The position numbers and the translations under genes are program-made. Of a stretch of 33,662 nt of DNA, positions 5,092 to 16,208 are shown in pieces. Source of the stretch: a virus; IMG/VR virus record IMGVR_UViG_3300046328_001034, positions 1 to 33,662 of that record; one strand, given 5' to 3'. Within the stretch, counting starts at the first letter, position 1. The number at the start of each line of letters is the position of its first letter. The notes beneath the pieces were generated by a model. That model had not been told where the DNA came from, did not search any database, and was given only the letters and a program-made list of their open reading frames with translations.

Positions 5092-6477
5092 TTACTTAGC
5101 TTTTTTTTCGTTTGGATAGTGACCGTGTTTTGCTTTGAACTCTTCGTCCATTTCCCTTTTCACTCTGGTAGTGTAGGATTCTGGGCCTGCTGGTTTTGGA
5201 GAACCTCCAGGAATAACCGCATCAGCTGCCGGTGAGCTGAAAGCCCCCCTCGTTAATGGGTTTTTTTGCATCTGGCTAAAAAGCTCAGTATGCGCACCAA
5301 CCGATTTTTCTACGCCTTCAAGCTTTTCGCTAAAGCCTTTGAACTGAGCCGAAAGCTCTCCAAGGGTTTTGGTTAAAGCAGAAAGTGCAGCTGGATCAGC
5401 GGCAGGCGTTTCAGGTGTGGCAGGATCTGCCTGCTCAGAGACGATGGCGGTAATAATACCGTTTTCATCCGTTGTGATCTTGGATCCGGCAAGGTCTCCC
5501 TCAACGATTTCATGATCACCAGCTGGAGGCACCTCGCCGGTACCGTCCACAATTACCGAATCACCAACGGCGGGAGCATCTCCGGCTGTGATGATGGTAA
5601 TGGCAACGCCGTCCTTCGTCACTCCGGTGGCATCGAGTGCCTTTTTCCCTTGCGACAAAAGCACAGCCTTGATGATGTCCTTAAAGGACTTCGTCGGTTT
5701 GCTCATGGTTTTTAAAATAGATTTTTGTTTATCAAGAAAGGCGATCGCCTTAGCAGGATCATTGAGAAGGAACTTTTTGAGGTGCGGGTGCGAGTTCAAA
5801 AAGCTGTCGGCCTGAAATGCAAAAAGGTGGTCAAAGTATTGACTACCTTCTGAAAACAGGCCATCGGTTGCGGCTCCGGTATCAACACAATCAGAAGCCG
5901 AGAGCTTCTTGATGGTGGCATACAGTTTCCGCTTTTCTTTTGGCAGAGCTTTCCATGCCTCCCAGGCTGGCGTACTACCATCATCATCTACCTTCTTGCC
6001 TTCTATATCGTAGAAGTAGCAATTACCAGGCATGAAAACGATGGATTGACCAAATGCTTTCGGATTTTCGGAGGCCAGCTGAAGGAGATAGTCCTTCATG
6101 CCCTTATATTTTGGGCTGGCGTTGCTGGCCTCTGAAAGGTGGAAATCGGCAAGGCACTGAGAACCCTCTACCCGGATATTAAAGTGTAAACCGGCATAGC
6201 TACCAATCGCATCTTCACTTGCGGCAGGGTGACCAAAGCGACATTTTAAGCCAGATTCATTAAAGGCACCACCAAGGAGGGCAAGCTCATCTATAAAAGA
6301 TTGATCCAACCAAACCTCGTGGCCTTTGGCCTCGCCTACCTGGCAAAGCACCACGCCTTTTAAAATACCAGCTTCGGCATCTACATTGGCGGGCAAAGTT
6401 TCTGTAAATGCAAATTCACTCCGCAGCTGAGTGCCCGGAGCGAAGTGCTTAATATGGTTGATCTTTGACATCGGCAA
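5092..6477 (-). CDS. Capsid maturation protease with C-terminal scaffold domain
   Basis: The 461-residue protein looks like two parts. Residues about 1-215 resemble a phage prohead protease: a conserved RFGHP (H83) and FGQSIVFMP (S145) are plausible catalytic His and Ser, and KLSASDCVDTGAATDGLF is typical of this group. Residues 258-461 begin at an internal ATG (M258, position 5706; MSKPTKSFKDIIKAVL), contain small-domain repeats rich in Gly/Asp/Val, a proline/alanine stretch, and a helix (ALTKTLGELSAQFKGFSEKLEGVEKS split around 385-415) typical of scaffolds, then a basic tail. It lies directly upstream of the capsid gene. The internal ATG could yield a separate scaffold, as in lambda C/Nu3. 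Protease class is inferred. Confidence 0.8.
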   Translation of the reverse strand: MPMSKINHIKHFAPGTQLRSEFAFTETLPANVDAEAGILKGVVLCQVGEAKGHEVWLDQSFIDELALLGGAFNESGLKCRFGHPAASEDAIGSYAGLHFNIRVEGSQCLADFHLSEASNASPKYKGMKDYLLQLASENPKAFGQSIVFMPGNCYFYDIEGKKVDDDGSTPAWEAWKALPKEKRKLYATIKKLSASDCVDTGAATDGLFSEGSQYFDHLFAFQADSFLNSHPHLKKFLLNDPAKAIAFLDKQKSILKTMSKPTKSFKDIIKAVLLSQGKKALDATGVTKDGVAITIITAGDAPAVGDSVIVDGTGEVPPAGDHEIVEGDLAGSKITTDENGIITAIVSEQADPATPETPAADPAALSALTKTLGELSAQFKGFSEKLEGVEKSVGAHTELFSQMQKNPLTRGAFSSPAADAVIPGGSPKPAGPESYTTRVKREMDEEFKAKHGHYPNEKKAK

Positions 6478-8162: not shown

Positions 8163-8173
8163 TGGATTGTTTG

Positions 8174-8386
8174 TTAAAACGGTAAATCATCGATGGATGG
8201 GCGGCAATCCTCAACGTGCCATTTCAGAATGCTAACTGATTTAATGGTTGTCAACACCCAGGCTTTTTTGTTTAGAAATTCAGCCAGGCGTTTGGCTTCC
8301 TTCTCGGCCGCTTCGAGTGTTGGATGTTTGAATGCAGGTGTATGCTGACCTTCAACAAACACCATGAAAAAGAAATTATTTTCCAT
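8174..8386 (-). CDS. Small phage protein with SSB-like C-terminal tail, 70 aa
   Basis: Residues 1-55 form a beta-hairpin and helix pattern (FFFMVFVEGQHTPAFKHPTL, then EAAEKEAKRLAEFLNKKAWVL) that recalls a common small phage family of unknown function. The C-terminus is RPSIDDLPF, which matches the acidic DDxPF tip by which single-stranded DNA-binding protein recruits replication and repair partners. The primase-helicase of this phage ends in the same DDLPF. The protein itself shows no OB fold, so it is not an SSB. A role in linking to replication proteins is inference from the tail. Confidence 0.8.
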   Translation of the reverse strand: MENNFFFMVFVEGQHTPAFKHPTLEAAEKEAKRLAEFLNKKAWVLTTIKSVSILKWHVEDCRPSIDDLPF

Positions 8387-8410
8387 TGCTAATTTTTTGA
8401 TTGTTAAAAC

Positions 8411-8695
8411 TTAATTGATTGTCACTTTAAAAAAATTTTCTGTCTCCTCCTTCTTCCTCTTCATAGTGCTCAGCATCTGGCTGAGCAAGTGGAAGAAGAT
8501 CTCCCAGCTACCTGTCTCCGCATAGCCTTTAATATAAGCCTCATCCTCTACCGTGGTTTTCTTGCTTGAAAGGCAAAAGTCCTCCTCGCCGGTTACACTG
8601 CTTTTTGCTATCACCCGCACGTATCGGGTTTGGGTATCGGTTACCATCCAGGCTTCCGATCGGCTGGCTGTGGTGTAGAATCGATCAGCAGCCAT
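8411..8695 (-). CDS. Unknown early protein, 94 aa
   Basis: The product has an N-terminal beta segment with Arg/Ser (RFYTTASRSEAWMVTDTQTRYVRVI), a short acidic loop and a helical C-terminal half (FFHLLSQMLSTMKRKKEE). It lies between the 70-residue gene (24 bases downstream) and the iteron region. Neither the start at 8695 nor the frame conflicts with a stronger alternative. No family recognised. Confidence 0.6.
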   Translation of the reverse strand: MAADRFYTTASRSEAWMVTDTQTRYVRVIAKSSVTGEEDFCLSSKKTTVEDEAYIKGYAETGSWEIFFHLLSQMLSTMKRKKEETENFFKVTIN

Positions 8696-8770
8696 AGCCT
8701 TGTAAGGTTTTGAGAGTTCCTGTCAACGCTGCTCCATTTCTAAAGCAGACAGCATTTTTTTTGTTGTTTT

Positions 8771-9003
8771 TGTAACATTTGAAACAGAGGCCTGAAATAC
8801 AAAGGCTTATCATGTTACAAAACGTGTTACAAAATCTGTTACAAAAATCCAGCGATTTCGAAGCCAGATTTAGGAGGTCGGCAAAGGGAAATCCTGTTAC
8901 AGTTGTTACATTTTTAATTTTAAAAAAAATAAAATGTAACATCCGTTGCCTGTTCACTATCAACGGCTTATTCTCCGATTTTACAAAAGTTACAAAAGTT
9001 ACA
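8771..9003. repeat. Iteron-like array of TGTTACA motifs, candidate replication origin
   Basis: The 7-mer TGTTACA occurs at 8813, 8825 and 8837 (exact 12-base period, each followed by AAAA), and at 8895 and 8904. Its reverse complement occurs at 8771 and 8935. AGTTACA occurs at 8988 and 8997 with a related TTTTACA at 8979 (9-base period). The array lies immediately downstream of the primase-helicase gene in an AT-rich 365-base stretch. A 130-residue frame on the minus strand spans it but reads as repeat-derived FCN and VTF words, so the array is treated as non-coding. Origin function is inferred. Confidence 0.6.
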
Positions 9004-9060
9004 AGAAAATTGGCTTCGCTTGTTTTTCGCCCAAAGCAAAAGAAGCGCTTATGTAAGGTT

Positions 9061-11511
9061 TTAGAATGGTAGGTCATCGTTGTTCGGTTTTGGCGGCACA
9101 GTTGCCGGTTGTGTTGGTTCTACTTTCAATGGTTCGCCCATATTTGCCCGCTGGCCATGCTCGCTGTACTTATCTTCCTCAAAACCTTTGATCCATTCCT
9201 CCACCTTGAAGTGGAAGCAGCGGCCTACCTTTGAAATATTCCACTGGATCTCCCCCGTCTCAGCATTAAAACTTTCCGGATATCGCAACCGCTGCGGCTC
9301 AGATGGCACCATCTTCATTTTATCTTTCAAAAACTTCTTCACCTCCAGCTGGTCTATGGCATACTTACTTTCAGCATCCCGCTTTATTACCTGGACAATG
9401 GTGGCCACATCCATCCGGAAGCTGTTCACCTTGTAGGTTTGGAAGATGTCCGTAATCACACCATCCACCACCCGATCCACCCGGTTTCGTGTAGCCTCGA
9501 TGATTGATTTCAACTGCTCGGTAATAATGTGCTCCGTTGCAAACCAGGATCTGGTCTTTCGTGCATGGAAAACCTTTCGGGTACTAAGGAAGTGTAGCCA
9601 TGCCGGAATTTCCGCCTTCATCTTGTTTCGCATGTCCGGGTCGTTTTTGATGCCATGCTCAGCAAAGGTTTTTACCCGAACCACAAACCATCGCACCTCG
9701 CCATCCTCAATTTTCATAAGAGAATCAGCATCGTTTGAGCAAATGATCAGCTTCGCGTAAAAGTCCACCGTCTTTACATCTGCCCCCTTGAACTCCAAAA
9801 ACTGCTTATCATCTGTGGCCAGCTTTTTCAGGCGCTCTTTTTCTGCCCGTTTCTCCACATCCAGAAAACCCTCATCAATCCCGATGATGTACTTGGTAAT
9901 GTAGTGGCTGTTGAAACTCTGCTTGAAACGCTCGTTATCGATAATGGTGGCATTTGAACCAAATATGTCCTGCAGCCATTTCAGGAAGGAACTTTTACCC
10001 GTTTCGTTTTCCGGGCTCACCAGGCAAAGCACCGGGAGAATGTGGGTCGGATTCTGCCACATCAGCGTGAGGTAATCTAGGGCCACAGTAAAGATGTCTC
10101 CCTCAATGTCGTTCTCCGCTGTGCCGTTTCCTTCAAAAATATGTTTGAGGAAAGAAAGCGTGTTTTCAATGCCACCCTTTGCTGGCTTATGAATCACCGG
10201 ATTGTAGAGATTAAAGCAACTGTTATGGATCCGCTGGTAGCTGGGCGAATTGTCTGGCATATTGCACCAGGTAAGGTACTTGGGCAGGTCATCCATAAAA
10301 TACTTGCCATAGTCCTGGGTAATTTCCCCTTTGCTCCACTTTACAATTTCCTCCTCCAGCTCATTGTGTTTGTTGGGCACCTTCACCAGGCGGAAGTAGT
10401 CGCACCCAATGCGCATGTACTCCTTCACATCCTGATGGCCAATCCGGAGCAGCTTGCCATTATCGCCATCCTGCACCCAACGGTAACTGAGGCGTTTAAA
10501 AACAAATTCATTGTCTTTAATGTCCGCCTCATACACCTGGTAAAAGTTCTCCGCCGATATAACCCCGAGAAAGTTCTGCAGCTTGTGGTTACCATCCGTA
10601 ATATTAAGGATGTTGAAATTGAGGTTATCCAGCTGCAACATTTTCAGCGATTCCAAAACCGAAGGGTGGCGGTTAGGAAGTTTAGGCGTCAGCAAATCAT
10701 CCAGGCCTTTGCCATCCTGCACATGGTTTCGGGAAATGCAGCCCACATACACATCACGCAGGGCCAGATCCTTGCGGATGCTCATTTCAGCCATCACCGC
10801 CTCACGGAAGTTTTTCCATGCTGTGTAGAACAGATTCGGCCTTTTGCTCAGGTCTTTCCCCGGTTCAAACTTAACTGTCAGAGTGTCAGCATCGGTAAGG
10901 AATAAAACCTTTTCCACCTTGCAAACCACCATCAGCCAGATCAGGTCCTCATGGATCCTCTTGGTGTCGTTGTTGGTGTAAAAGTTATGGATCCCGGCAA
11001 TACCCACCACATCCAGCCCCATTTTTGAGCCGCGAATAGCTTTCTTCTCCCCCTCGGTTATAACGAGGAGCTCGATTTTGGCCTTTTGCCTAAATTTCAA
11101 AATCACCTCAGGTGTAAAGTAGATCTGGTTACCCGCCTTCCATGCCGTTTGGTACTTCATTTCCTTACCCTCAGCATTTAGCCTCGGTACTTTGAAACGG
11201 GTCCGGTGAAAAGGTTTTGGCCATTTGGCATCGCCCTGGTGGTCCGTCCGCAGGTGGCCGTAAAGGTCATAGTATGGGATTACCATATTTCCGGCCTCAT
11301 CCTCAGTAAAAAGCAGATTCCTCTCTACCTCCTCCGTGGTTTCATCCAGTTCCATGGCCTCCCACTCAGAGAAATTACCATTCGGGTTAGGCTTTAGCCC
11401 GATCCGCTTTGGCACCTCAAAGAAGTTATTGGTCGCATCAATCCCGATGCTTTCCATTTGGAGCAGGAAGAAGGATTTCTCGGTTTCGATTTTTTTTGAT
11501 TCTTCCTGCAT
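9061..11511 (-). CDS. Phage primase-helicase (Toprim/DUF3854 plus SF3/DUF5906-like helicase)
   Basis: The 816-residue protein should synthesise primers and unwind DNA at the phage fork. The N-terminal Toprim-like region has E153 in ITEGEKKA, D207 and D209 in FLTDADT, and GKGLDDLL near 267-274. The C-terminal ATPase has Walker A SPENETGKSS at 499-508, Walker B IIGIDEG at 542-548 and motif C-like LIICSNDAD at 588-596, the set expected of superfamily 3 / D5-like helicases. The last residues are PNNDDLPF, an SSB-type interaction tip. The gene sits next to the iteron array and is preceded by one base-spacing to the 112-residue gene. A separate phage polymerase was not found, so host polymerase is likely used. 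Confidence 0.9.
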   Translation of the reverse strand: MQEESKKIETEKSFFLLQMESIGIDATNNFFEVPKRIGLKPNPNGNFSEWEAMELDETTEEVERNLLFTEDEAGNMVIPYYDLYGHLRTDHQGDAKWPKPFHRTRFKVPRLNAEGKEMKYQTAWKAGNQIYFTPEVILKFRQKAKIELLVITEGEKKAIRGSKMGLDVVGIAGIHNFYTNNDTKRIHEDLIWLMVVCKVEKVLFLTDADTLTVKFEPGKDLSKRPNLFYTAWKNFREAVMAEMSIRKDLALRDVYVGCISRNHVQDGKGLDDLLTPKLPNRHPSVLESLKMLQLDNLNFNILNITDGNHKLQNFLGVISAENFYQVYEADIKDNEFVFKRLSYRWVQDGDNGKLLRIGHQDVKEYMRIGCDYFRLVKVPNKHNELEEEIVKWSKGEITQDYGKYFMDDLPKYLTWCNMPDNSPSYQRIHNSCFNLYNPVIHKPAKGGIENTLSFLKHIFEGNGTAENDIEGDIFTVALDYLTLMWQNPTHILPVLCLVSPENETGKSSFLKWLQDIFGSNATIIDNERFKQSFNSHYITKYIIGIDEGFLDVEKRAEKERLKKLATDDKQFLEFKGADVKTVDFYAKLIICSNDADSLMKIEDGEVRWFVVRVKTFAEHGIKNDPDMRNKMKAEIPAWLHFLSTRKVFHARKTRSWFATEHIITEQLKSIIEATRNRVDRVVDGVITDIFQTYKVNSFRMDVATIVQVIKRDAESKYAIDQLEVKKFLKDKMKMVPSEPQRLRYPESFNAETGEIQWNISKVGRCFHFKVEEWIKGFEEDKYSEHGQRANMGEPLKVEPTQPATVPPKPNNDDLPF

Positions 11512-11850
11512 TTAAAAAAGCCTCAGTTGATTGGGTGGTAATTCTGGATCCTCTGTCAAAACCACTGCTTCTGTTGTAGAAATTGGTGTTTTGGTGACTT
11601 CTTCCGCAAACCATTCAAATCCTGTCGTTTGTGGCCAGTAATCCGCACACCCATTTACAGGTCCGTCGTAGTTAATGGCATCAAAGTCATTCTTGATAAT
11701 TTTGGGATCTGGATTTTCATCGATGGATGGGCTGTTAAATAATCCGCTGGGCAAGAAAGGCATGATCGGAGCAATGGTTCCCGCTTCATCAAACCGCTGG
11801 CAGCTCTCCCGGAGGGTGCAGCGGGTAAGGTTGCATTTAGGTAGGTTCAT
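11512..11850 (-). CDS. Small cysteine-containing early protein, 112 aa
   Basis: The N-terminus carries three cysteines, PKCNLTRCTLRESCQRF (C6, C11, C17), and a fourth in NGCADYW near residue 68; together they could hold zinc or an iron-sulfur cluster. The rest is acidic and proline-rich and ends in NQLRLF. It overlaps the ASCH gene by 14 bases and is followed directly by the primase-helicase, so it may serve replication. No family is recognised. Confidence 0.7.
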   Translation of the reverse strand: MNLPKCNLTRCTLRESCQRFDEAGTIAPIMPFLPSGLFNSPSIDENPDPKIIKNDFDAINYDGPVNGCADYWPQTTGFEWFAEEVTKTPISTTEAVVLTEDPELPPNQLRLF

Positions 11851-13260: not shown

Positions 13261-14579
13261 CAGGCTTGTTTTTGAAAATTGATTAAAAGTCTTTTTGCCA
13301 TCGCCTCCGCCCATGCCTTCACTACATCAGGCACCACGGAGTTCCCAATGAATTTCTTGTGGTCAGATTGATTCCCCACCATGTGGTATTTCTCTGGAAA
13401 GCCCTGAATTTTCAGCAGCTCAGGGACCATCAGCATTCTCATTTTGACATCAAGGATGTCGTTTTCATCCATCAGGACCTTTATCAAATACAAAGGTTCT
13501 TTATCCTGCATGGCAATGATCACCGGGCTTGGGTTCTCAATCAAATGCGAGTTTCCCCCATAAGATTTATTGAGTATAAATGTGACAAGATTGGCCTTTG
13601 GATTGGTAGGAAGCGTTCCCATTGGCGTTTCTGTACTGGAACTGTAGCCAGTTTTATACTGTCTGAAAATGAACTGAAGCTTTGCAAATCGATCCTTTGT
13701 AGGGATGGTTCCACATGGGAGATCCAATAAATTTAGATTGTCACCATTGCCGTAGTAAGCAAAAAGAATAGAATCGTTCCCCTTCTCTAAAGCTTTGATA
13801 ATGCCTTTGTAAATCACTTTTAAAGTGTTATCACATAGCGGCTTTTTGCGTGTGAAGATCGATTCGCCTTCATCTTCCATTTTAAGTACATCCTTTACAG
13901 CCTTCCAAGGTGCCAAACTGCCAAACATGCCGGGTCTTACCTTCTTGGAGTGTGTTGGCTCCGGCCAGGTGATGGGTAAACCATGTTTCGCAAAGCACCC
14001 AAACAACCGGTTTCGGCTGGTGTAAGCCCCGAAGTTGGCAGAATTCAATTCCCGCCACTCATCATAGTACCCACGGCTGCACATCTCCGCTCTCCATCGT
14101 ACCCAATCCTGCCCATTCTTGCGGCTTATCGGTTTATTGTTGGCATCCAGCGGCCCCCAAGCCATAAACTCCACCACGTTTTCAATTTTCACAAAGTCCG
14201 GATCCAGTGCCTCCTGGTATCGGAACAAATCACAAGCCAGGGTCCGGCTGTCCGCATCGCGGGGAAGGCCACCCTTCGCCTTGCTGTGGTTGGTGCATTC
14301 CAGCGATGCCCAAAGCACCACATACGCATTCGGGTACTGTATTCTCGCTTTGCGTACCAGTTCCACCAGCGGCCCAAGTTCCAGCGTGCGGATATCCTCC
14401 GTAAAGTGCACCACATCCGGGTGGTTAAGAAAATGGCTGTTAATCGCCTTCGGGTCATGGTTTACGCAGGCAATTACCTTCGCCACCTTTTCGCCCTCGA
14501 TCAAAGCCCTGTCATACCCCAGTGTAGTTCCTCCGAAACCACAGAAAAGGTCTATGATTAAAAATGTGGGTTGATTCAC
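13260..14579 (-). CDS. DNA (cytosine-5) methyltransferase
   Basis: C5-methyltransferase motifs appear in order: SAM-binding DLFCGFGGTT (residues 10-19), catalytic cysteine C95 in LWASLECTNHS, ENV at 133-135, SRNRLFG at 188-194 and GNSVVP at 412-417. The catalytic motif is a variant: the usual PCQ is replaced by LECTN, a form I associate with a phage/Bacteroidota subgroup. The enzyme probably protects phage DNA from host restriction or marks it for regulation; no cognate restriction enzyme is nearby. Target sequence cannot be read. It is coupled to the small gene downstream and overlaps the clamp-like gene by 4 bases. Confidence 0.92.
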   Translation of the reverse strand: MNQPTFLIIDLFCGFGGTTLGYDRALIEGEKVAKVIACVNHDPKAINSHFLNHPDVVHFTEDIRTLELGPLVELVRKARIQYPNAYVVLWASLECTNHSKAKGGLPRDADSRTLACDLFRYQEALDPDFVKIENVVEFMAWGPLDANNKPISRKNGQDWVRWRAEMCSRGYYDEWRELNSANFGAYTSRNRLFGCFAKHGLPITWPEPTHSKKVRPGMFGSLAPWKAVKDVLKMEDEGESIFTRKKPLCDNTLKVIYKGIIKALEKGNDSILFAYYGNGDNLNLLDLPCGTIPTKDRFAKLQFIFRQYKTGYSSSTETPMGTLPTNPKANLVTFILNKSYGGNSHLIENPSPVIIAMQDKEPLYLIKVLMDENDILDVKMRMLMVPELLKIQGFPEKYHMVGNQSDHKKFIGNSVVPDVVKAWAEAMAKRLLINFQKQA

Positions 14580-15187
14580 TTCTCCCCCTCATTCCTTCCG
14601 GCTTCCACAGCGCCAGATTTAAAAAACGCAAATGGGGCATCCCTTTCACAATTACTAAGCATCTGAGGCATTAAAAAAGCCTCGCATTTCCAAGGAGAAT
14701 GATCAGGCTCATTTGGTACAACCCTTACAGGCTTATTTGCAGCACTAAAATCAATTCGCAACCCAGCCTGTGGATTTTCGAAAACCTTGTTGATAATCTC
14801 CAGGTATTTCGGATTAAAAGCGATTACATCAACAGAATTTGGTTGCCAGTAATCCACTGCATTTTTATACTCTGGAAACCTTTCATCCATACCTCTTACT
14901 CTCAAGTCACCAAAGGGCCCTCTGAAAAACACCTTGTTATCCTCAACAGTAAAAACAGGATACTTTGCAGAACAGAAATGAGCCCACATTTTGGCAGGCA
15001 ATAGCATGCCATTCATCAATTCAAGGATATTATCCAGGATAACATTTTCCAGAGAAACCTTTACCAACAAATGGGCATCGGTTGCTATCCCTGCATTGTC
15101 TTCAATCAAAACCCCACCCAAAGAAGGTCTCATACAATCCTTACTCGTTGCCAGGTGAAGCTTTGGCATTTTCAAAATATCAGCCAT
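14576..15187 (-). CDS. Miniature DNA sliding-clamp-like protein (DnaN-related), 203 aa
   Basis: Start placed at ATG 15187 (MADILKMPKLHLA); the frame is open further but upstream residues lie inside the DUF5131 gene. Residues about 11-40 (TSKDCMRPSLGGVLIED then AGIATDAHLLVKV) match the beta-clamp pattern RP.L.GVLI..D...ATD.H.L. Residues about 130-170 (AFNPKYLEIINKVF, then AGLRIDFSAANKPVRVVP) match the final clamp domain pattern FNPKYL...., then ..FT..NKPV.I. The protein is about half the usual 370 residues, so at least one domain is missing. It would tether a polymerase or other factor to DNA. It overlaps both neighbours. Confidence 0.7.
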   Translation of the reverse strand: MADILKMPKLHLATSKDCMRPSLGGVLIEDNAGIATDAHLLVKVSLENVILDNILELMNGMLLPAKMWAHFCSAKYPVFTVEDNKVFFRGPFGDLRVRGMDERFPEYKNAVDYWQPNSVDVIAFNPKYLEIINKVFENPQAGLRIDFSAANKPVRVVPNEPDHSPWKCEAFLMPQMLSNCERDAPFAFFKSGAVEAGRNEGEK

Positions 15188-16208
15188 TTTGCACCTCATT
15201 CCTTCCCTTCGGAAATTTGTTCCACTCCTTACCATCCAGAAAATTTCCCGCAGCGTTTTTGCCAACCCTATGGCTACAGGTTTCAGTGTCAAACACTTTG
15301 TAGCTTGTAAATCCACGGACACTTTCATCATTTTGAATTTGACCGATTGGGCACCACTCCCCCCACTGCTTAAAAAAGAAAGGCACCTCCGCCGCCTCAC
15401 ACTGATCTCTCAAACTCCTAAACCAATCCGGATGGCTCGGCTCAGCTTTAGGTCCAGATTCTCCCCCGGCTATTACCCAGTGGATCACTTCATCACATAC
15501 GTCAGAATGGTTTACAAACTCACCTGGATAAAACCCACTGGTCCACGTTCCTGCTCGAAGGCAGTCGTATCTATAATTTGGTAGAGTCTCAACATCAGCT
15601 CGCCTAACTTTTGTAAGGTCAATCGGTCCCACCAACGGCTCACAGCTCACAAATCGCACCGCTGCCGGGCATTTAATCAAATGATAAATCCGCTTATCTG
15701 CCTCCTTCTGGTTCTCAATGGTTGTCCCCAGCCAAACGTTTGGCAGTGGCCATTTAAAAGGAATTTTAAGATCCAATCTCCTTGCAGAATCATCAAGATC
15801 ATGCCCAAGATCTTCATCGTTCAGATACTCGGCCATTCGATCTGGACGTTTTGTAAGTATCTGATAAGTAATGTGTGGCGTTGCAGCCATTAAAGCAAAC
15901 ACATGATCTATCCAATACGGGTTTACATCCTCATGAAATAAATCACTCATGGAGTTCACAAAAACCCGCTGCGGCTTTTTCCATTTCAGCGGTTCTAATA
16001 GTGCCTTCTCATCAAAGTTGATTTTGCCACTCCATACAATCTTCCCGCCTTCTGTTTTGCGGGTGGTTCCCTTATATTTATCCTGGCCCATTTGCTCCAG
16101 GCGAAAGGCCATTCTCATGGCATAGCAATTTTCACAGGCTCGGCTCACCATAGTGCAGCCCGCCAACGGGTTCCAGGTGCGGTCCGTCCATTCAATCTTT
16201 GTGGCCAT
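15180..16208 (-). CDS. Phage Gp37/Gp68-family (DUF5131) protein, radical-SAM-like
   Basis: With the start at 16208 the protein begins MATKIEWTDRTWNPLAGCTM, the typical opening of this family. Three cysteines in GCTMVSRACENCYAM (spacing C-x6-C-x2-C) are the expected cluster-binding set. Family-typical segments follow: VFVNSMSDLFHEDV, YQILTKRPDRM, NVWLGTTIENQ, RFVSCEPLVGPI, WVIAGGESG and PFFFKQWGEW. The biochemical function is not established; related TIM-barrel enzymes act on nucleic acids or nucleotides. It sits with the methyltransferase, ASCH and clamp-like genes. Its start overlaps the 53-residue membrane protein by 17 bases. Confidence 0.92.
   Translation of the reverse strand: MATKIEWTDRTWNPLAGCTMVSRACENCYAMRMAFRLEQMGQDKYKGTTRKTEGGKIVWSGKINFDEKALLEPLKWKKPQRVFVNSMSDLFHEDVNPYWIDHVFALMAATPHITYQILTKRPDRMAEYLNDEDLGHDLDDSARRLDLKIPFKWPLPNVWLGTTIENQKEADKRIYHLIKCPAAVRFVSCEPLVGPIDLTKVRRADVETLPNYRYDCLRAGTWTSGFYPGEFVNHSDVCDEVIHWVIAGGESGPKAEPSHPDWFRSLRDQCEAAEVPFFFKQWGEWCPIGQIQNDESVRGFTSYKVFDTETCSHRVGKNAAGNFLDGKEWNKFPKGRNEVQNG

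Follow-up and report, generated by a model that had tools for sequence, protein, structure and literature searches.

Two proteins of one phage, a primase-helicase and a conserved 70-residue protein, end in C-terminal tips that likely mimic the SSB tip of the host

The acidic C-terminal tip of SSB (DDDIPF in E. coli) recruits many replication and repair proteins and has been regarded as a hub signal proper to SSBs. The window, which here means the whole stretch of 33,662 bases that was analysed, encodes two proteins that carry such a tip outside any detected SSB domain. An 816-residue primase-helicase terminates in ...VPPKPNNDDLPF (NNDDLPF directly before the stop codon), and a 70-residue protein terminates in ...CRPSIDDLPF (SIDDLPF before the stop). 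Both reading frames, already reported in the initial annotation, were confirmed on the minus strand. Its description of tips flanking an iteron array also agrees with the layout given below, in which a repeat-rich spacer of ~365 bp and the gene of a 94-residue protein lie between the two tips. The spacer possibly represents a replication origin with iterons; the 94-residue protein (8411-8695) matched no known family in a Pfam profile search.

8174..8386, minus strand: 70-residue protein, predicted beta-beta-alpha-beta core with C-terminal DDLPF tip (reading frame, family alignments, AF2 model and phrog_28324 match)
8174..8191, minus strand: DDLPF tip codons and stop of the 70-residue protein (pattern scan; tip kept in 27 relatives)
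8411..8695, minus strand: 94-residue protein between the two tipped genes (reading frame; homologue at the same place in L001, the closest relative of the primase)
8696..9060, no strand: spacer in which TGTTACAAAA recurs in both orientations (L001 has similar elements at the corresponding position, 8440-8760)
9061..11511, minus strand: 816-residue primase-helicase (DUF3854 and DUF5906) with C-terminal DDLPF tip (Pfam; PHROG DNA primase)
9061..9078, minus strand: DDLPF tip codons and stop of the primase-helicase (pattern scan; kept in L001 despite divergence of the linker)
9079..9201, minus strand: Pro/Glu/Thr-rich, presumably disordered linker of the primase, residues 771-811 (10 of 41 residues identical to L001)

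The DDLPF pattern followed by a stop-like codon (GAYGAYYTNCCNTTYTRR) was found at exactly two places in the window, 8174-8191 and 9061-9078, whereas 100 dinucleotide shuffles gave none (mean 0.00, maximum 0), which bears out the earlier statement that two tips are unlikely by chance. The looser pattern [DE]LPF was detected at the same two places only (0.22 expected), and none of the other reading frames of the window (at least 35 residues) had a DDLPF-type end. Among 34 related loci, 35 of 1457 distinct reading frames of at least 50 residues ended in PF, and the acidic-LPF ends were those of members of the 70-residue family, of primases or of a DUF3127 OB-fold protein. Over whole records the tip pattern gave 27 matches and a reversed-pattern control gave one. 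Coincidental acidic-hydrophobic ends with no SSB-related function would be in line with the drift of the primase tip in distant relatives and with the core relatives of the 70-residue protein outside Bacteroidota, which are mostly tipless. Nevertheless, the shuffles, the reversed-pattern control and the conservation of the tip in 27 relatives, despite a variable linker and synonymous codon change, make coincidence very improbable. The tips are real, conserved and specific.

Relatives of the 70-residue protein were drawn from phage records, viral contigs and bacterial genomes, and 27 of them (24 distinct) were read to the stop codon. They derive from Bacteroides phage BKO1-TP3, the Microcystis phages Mea-Yong924-1 and -2, many uncultured phages, and prophages of Bacteroides and Paludibacter. 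All 27 end in PF and 11 in DDLPF, the remaining tips being mainly SDLPF, DELPF, EDLPF and DGLPF. Acidic residues precede L/I-P-F as in an SSB-Ct-type tip, with D or E at position -4 in 23 and at position -5 in 18 of the 27. Pairwise identity within the family is highest over the last four positions (86%), intermediate in the core (62%) and lowest in the linker (25%), and the stretch from the conserved DCRP to the tip varies in both length and sequence. In both tipped proteins the tip follows a variable flexible linker (24-25% identity). The tip codons vary synonymously across the relatives (four Pro and five Leu codons). Taken together, the conserved tip, its variable linker and the codon variation mark a short linear motif under selection. 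Variable tails, which the initial annotation had named as an argument against its proposal, were not encountered in this family, as 26 of the 27 relatives retain LPF while the linker varies. Two longer relatives (L029 and L034) are fused to another C-terminal domain and have no tip at that place.

The 816-residue protein matched PF19263 (4.5e-16, 60 bits, cut-off 27.6) and PF12965 (3.7e-6, 27.3 bits, cut-off 23), both above the curated cut-off, and a PHROG DNA primase family, which assigns it to the DUF3854/DUF5906 primase-helicases. Compared to L001, an 83% relative, 622 of the first 700 residues are identical and 40 of the 70 that follow; at the C-terminus the linker retains 10 of 41 residues (24%), whereas the tip is kept 5/5 with different codons. 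The expectation of a tip conserved at both C-termini held for the 70-residue family, while the primase keeps DDLPF in L001 only. Two long homologues among the distant DUF5906 prophage primases end in KIPF (L191) and EIPFN (L192), and the short distant ones as well as L006 have no tip. The primase of Mea-Yong924-1, a phage that also has a tailed 70-residue protein, ends in PKPELPF; it has no Pfam match, and no relatives of it were found in viral contigs. A Toprim protein of L020 ends in DELPFDAPF. Because of these ends, the primase tip appears recurrent by sequence, yet looser than that of the 70-residue protein. An obligate pair of tips was considered and rejected, as L001 has the primase tip without a tailed 70-residue protein and L002 has the 70-residue tip beside an unrelated, tipless DUF3987 protein.

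Two further reading frames on the minus strand of the window were noted. The 112-residue protein at 11512-11850 ends in NQLRLF directly before the stop, resembling the beta-clamp-binding motif QLxLF; this end is not conserved in L001, as the counterpart there ends in TKTPVIT. The protein encoded at 14576-15400 matched a family of phage DNA polymerase processivity factors (phrog_947, 1.4e-7).

The host of the phage, judging from its relatives, is probably a member of the Bacteroidota. Of 34 Bacteroidota SSB reading frames examined, 23 end in LPF or IPF, including 16 with DDLPF, and the variants DGLPF and EDLPF are present among the host tips too; at the level of sequence, the phage tip is the usual Bacteroidota SSB tip. 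One SSB of a Flavobacteriaceae MAG (L158, 1423-1827, minus strand) ends in DKDLSF, with a penultimate Ser as in E. coli ssb-113. According to structural work on SSB partners, the pocket buries the C-terminal Phe, whose carboxylate meets a basic lip, while the Asp residues face a basic ridge; binding is weakened by deletion of the Phe or by a Pro-to-Ser exchange (PMC10164576; for DnaG, PMC5872125). The positions named essential in these structures are retained here, namely the acidic residues and, in the 70-residue family, the primase and its close relative alike, the penultimate Pro and the C-terminal Phe with its free carboxylate. A search of the open-access literature, and thus of a limited part of it, yielded no report of an SSB tip on non-SSB phage proteins; the motif is known, and its carriers here are apparently undescribed.

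Mimicry of the SSB tip is well backed by the sequences, and the two tails are likely mimics that engage SSB-interacting proteins of the host. As a whole phage protein family retains the hook, its probable use is to contact replication or repair machinery of the host. The more specific proposal, that both tails dock in SSB-Ct pockets on proteins of the host and thereby bring these to phage DNA, is the reading we prefer with moderate confidence. The interpretation offered by the initial annotation stands in this form with regard to family conservation, the match to the tip of the host phylum and the retained key residues, but does not extend to a primase DDLPF beyond one close relative.

Does the phage encode an SSB of its own? 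Profile searches of the window with PF00436, DUF3127 and phrog_378 detected none. PF00436 was further searched in 25 records, comprising that of L001 (primase tip only), that of L029 (whose relative is tipless) and 23 that encode the tailed protein. Only the record of L029 contains such an SSB, and its absence from all 23 tailed-protein records is provisional because several records are fragments. Four further records, reached via the C-terminal domain of the L029 protein, all carry a PF00436 SSB, giving 5/5 records of C-extended tipless relatives versus 0/23 tailed ones, with the qualification that these four form a small set whose matches lie mainly outside the shared domain. A DUF3127 OB-fold protein was present in four of the 23 tailed-protein records, with a DDLPF tip in L024 and L026 and tipless in L015 and L020. 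In L020 its gene (5228-5515) starts 17 bp downstream of a tailed 69-residue gene. Owing to these four records the lack of an SSB is not universal, and the suggestion that the phage has none and spreads the tip to other proteins is consistent with the absence of all three families from the window and of PF00436 from the 23 records, though not as a strict rule.

The same records bear on the possibility that the 70-residue protein itself binds ssDNA through a fold other than OB, or supplies the tip-bearing half of a split SSB, with the tip acting as it does on SSB. A set of viral contigs chosen solely by the DDLPF-stop pattern contained at least 113 distinct reading frames, dominated by the ssDNA-binding families PF00436 (at least 18), DUF3127 (at least 18) and gp32 (at least 17); among the matches listed, several PHROG ssDNA-binding families add more, and one reading frame belongs to a primase/helicase family. 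A PcfJ-like protein of 631 residues (L112, 7779-9674) and a 331-residue protein without Pfam match (L072, 1462-2457) also end in DDLPF. Most other viral DDLPF proteins, among the matches listed, being ssDNA-binding favours this alternative and makes it a serious one, and the SSBs in the records of tipless relatives and the tipless DUF3127 proteins of L015 and L020 point the same way. On the other hand, the five tipless relatives, four of which match mainly in another domain, are a small basis, and the predicted core described below has a near-neutral charge and is not an OB fold; overall we consider it unlikely. A split SSB in the narrower sense, in which some Bacteroidota phages would combine a tipless DUF3127 OB domain with the tip supplied in trans by the 70-residue protein, and in which this protein and the primase would supply the tip where an OB protein is lacking, as here, is distinctly unlikely; tipless DUF3127 was found in two records only.

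The core of the 70-residue protein was modelled by AF2 from the 24-sequence alignment, replacing a poor single-sequence model, and is predicted as beta-beta-alpha-beta; pLDDT averages 80 overall and is lowest, at a mean of 65, over the final 10 residues. No known family was detected in Pfam or NCBIfam and no significant match to a solved structure in the PDB, by sequence or by fold. An assignment as an OB-fold or PF00436 SSB was therefore rejected, as the model is of another fold and neither Pfam nor any OB or SSB match supports it. The phrog_28324 profile matched 22 of the 24 family members (best 5.1e-7), and similar folds among viral structures were uncharacterised phage proteins. Before the tip the core contains 9 K/R and 8 D/E. 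Among the core relatives, those read from Escherichia, Caulobacter, Aeromonas and Vibrio phages lack the tip, and most of them are fusions with other domains. A 69-residue core relative in the Bordetella phages PY223 and PBb001 (L205, 5989-6198; L206, 489-698) ends in GCDDPFPF before the stop, which by its sequence is an SSB-like tip outside Bacteroidota. The family is confined to phages and prophages, is rare in hosts (1 of 296 Bacteroidota genomes) and had no relative in a plasmid search. Its neighbours are genes for exonuclease VIII, RecT, NinB/Orf, Holliday junction resolvase, helicase, primase and methylase. These replication and recombination neighbours, the restriction to phages and prophages and the lack of PF00436 with the tailed form were counted for mimicry; the distant primases without DDLPF, the lack of an obligate pair and DUF3127 in four records were counted against it.

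A tip of this kind could also compete. As an abundant early protein, the 70-residue protein might occupy the SSB-Ct pockets of host repair helicases and nucleases and so keep these enzymes off phage ssDNA, the primase tip being a separate recruitment feature. It is small and single-domain with the tip always last, and the replication modules that it accompanies differ widely (primase-helicase, DnaC-type loader, RecT/exonuclease), as would be expected for a generic host-directed function. The KD of the monovalent SSB-Ct is micromolar (PMC10164576), a level that an abundant small protein could reach. A pure decoy, however, needs no conserved folded core, and conservation at many core positions equals that of the tip; the primase tip would be left unexplained. 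We regard a decoy as unlikely and prefer recruitment because the primase is tipped as well and the core of the 70-residue protein is conserved.

In the preferred reading of recruitment by SSB-tip mimicry, each tail would be a flexible linker that ends in an acidic-Leu-Pro-Phe hook; with its free carboxylate, this hook would fit the SSB-Ct pocket of SSB-interacting proteins in the host, the likely Bacteroidota partners being PriA, RecO, RecQ, RecG or DnaG-like proteins. The hook of the primase-helicase would hold a host factor at the fork or origin of the phage, the role that SSB-coated DNA plays for the chromosome. The small domain of the 70-residue protein would serve as an anchor, to DNA or to a phage partner, and its hook would draw host factors to the DNA of a phage that relies on the SSB of its host. 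From the sequences we infer pocket binding, the identity of the partners and recruitment rather than competition. If true, phages take over the ssDNA-processing network of the host by copying its address label. A role would thereby be suggested for a so far uncharacterised phage domain, and the tips of the 70-residue family and the primase would offer a natural probe for Bacteroidota SSB-Ct pockets.

In comparison with known systems, the 70-residue protein has its core fold and a sequence motif in common with the uncharacterised phrog_28324 and phrog_17352 domain of T7-like, Caulobacter and Vibrio phages, whose relatives outside Bacteroidota mostly lack the tip. With bacterial SSB (PF00436) both carriers share the terminal D-D-L-P-F, the free carboxylate of the Phe and the variable linker before it, whereas in SSB the tip sits on an OB-fold protein and here on a primase-helicase and a small protein with a predicted non-OB core. 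The SSB of phage HK620, whose tail NDYPPF is needed by the phage protein Sak4 (PMC5928155), phage DUF3127 proteins and gp32-like DDLPF proteins are likewise phage proteins with an SSB-like tip from a replication or recombination region; these are ssDNA-binding, whereas the carriers described here, known from sequence, have no detected SSB domain. Orf/YbcN of lambda-type phages is another phage protein that connects to the network of SSB interactions in the host; YbcN recognises the SSB tail (PMC4118853), whereas the proteins of the window carry it.
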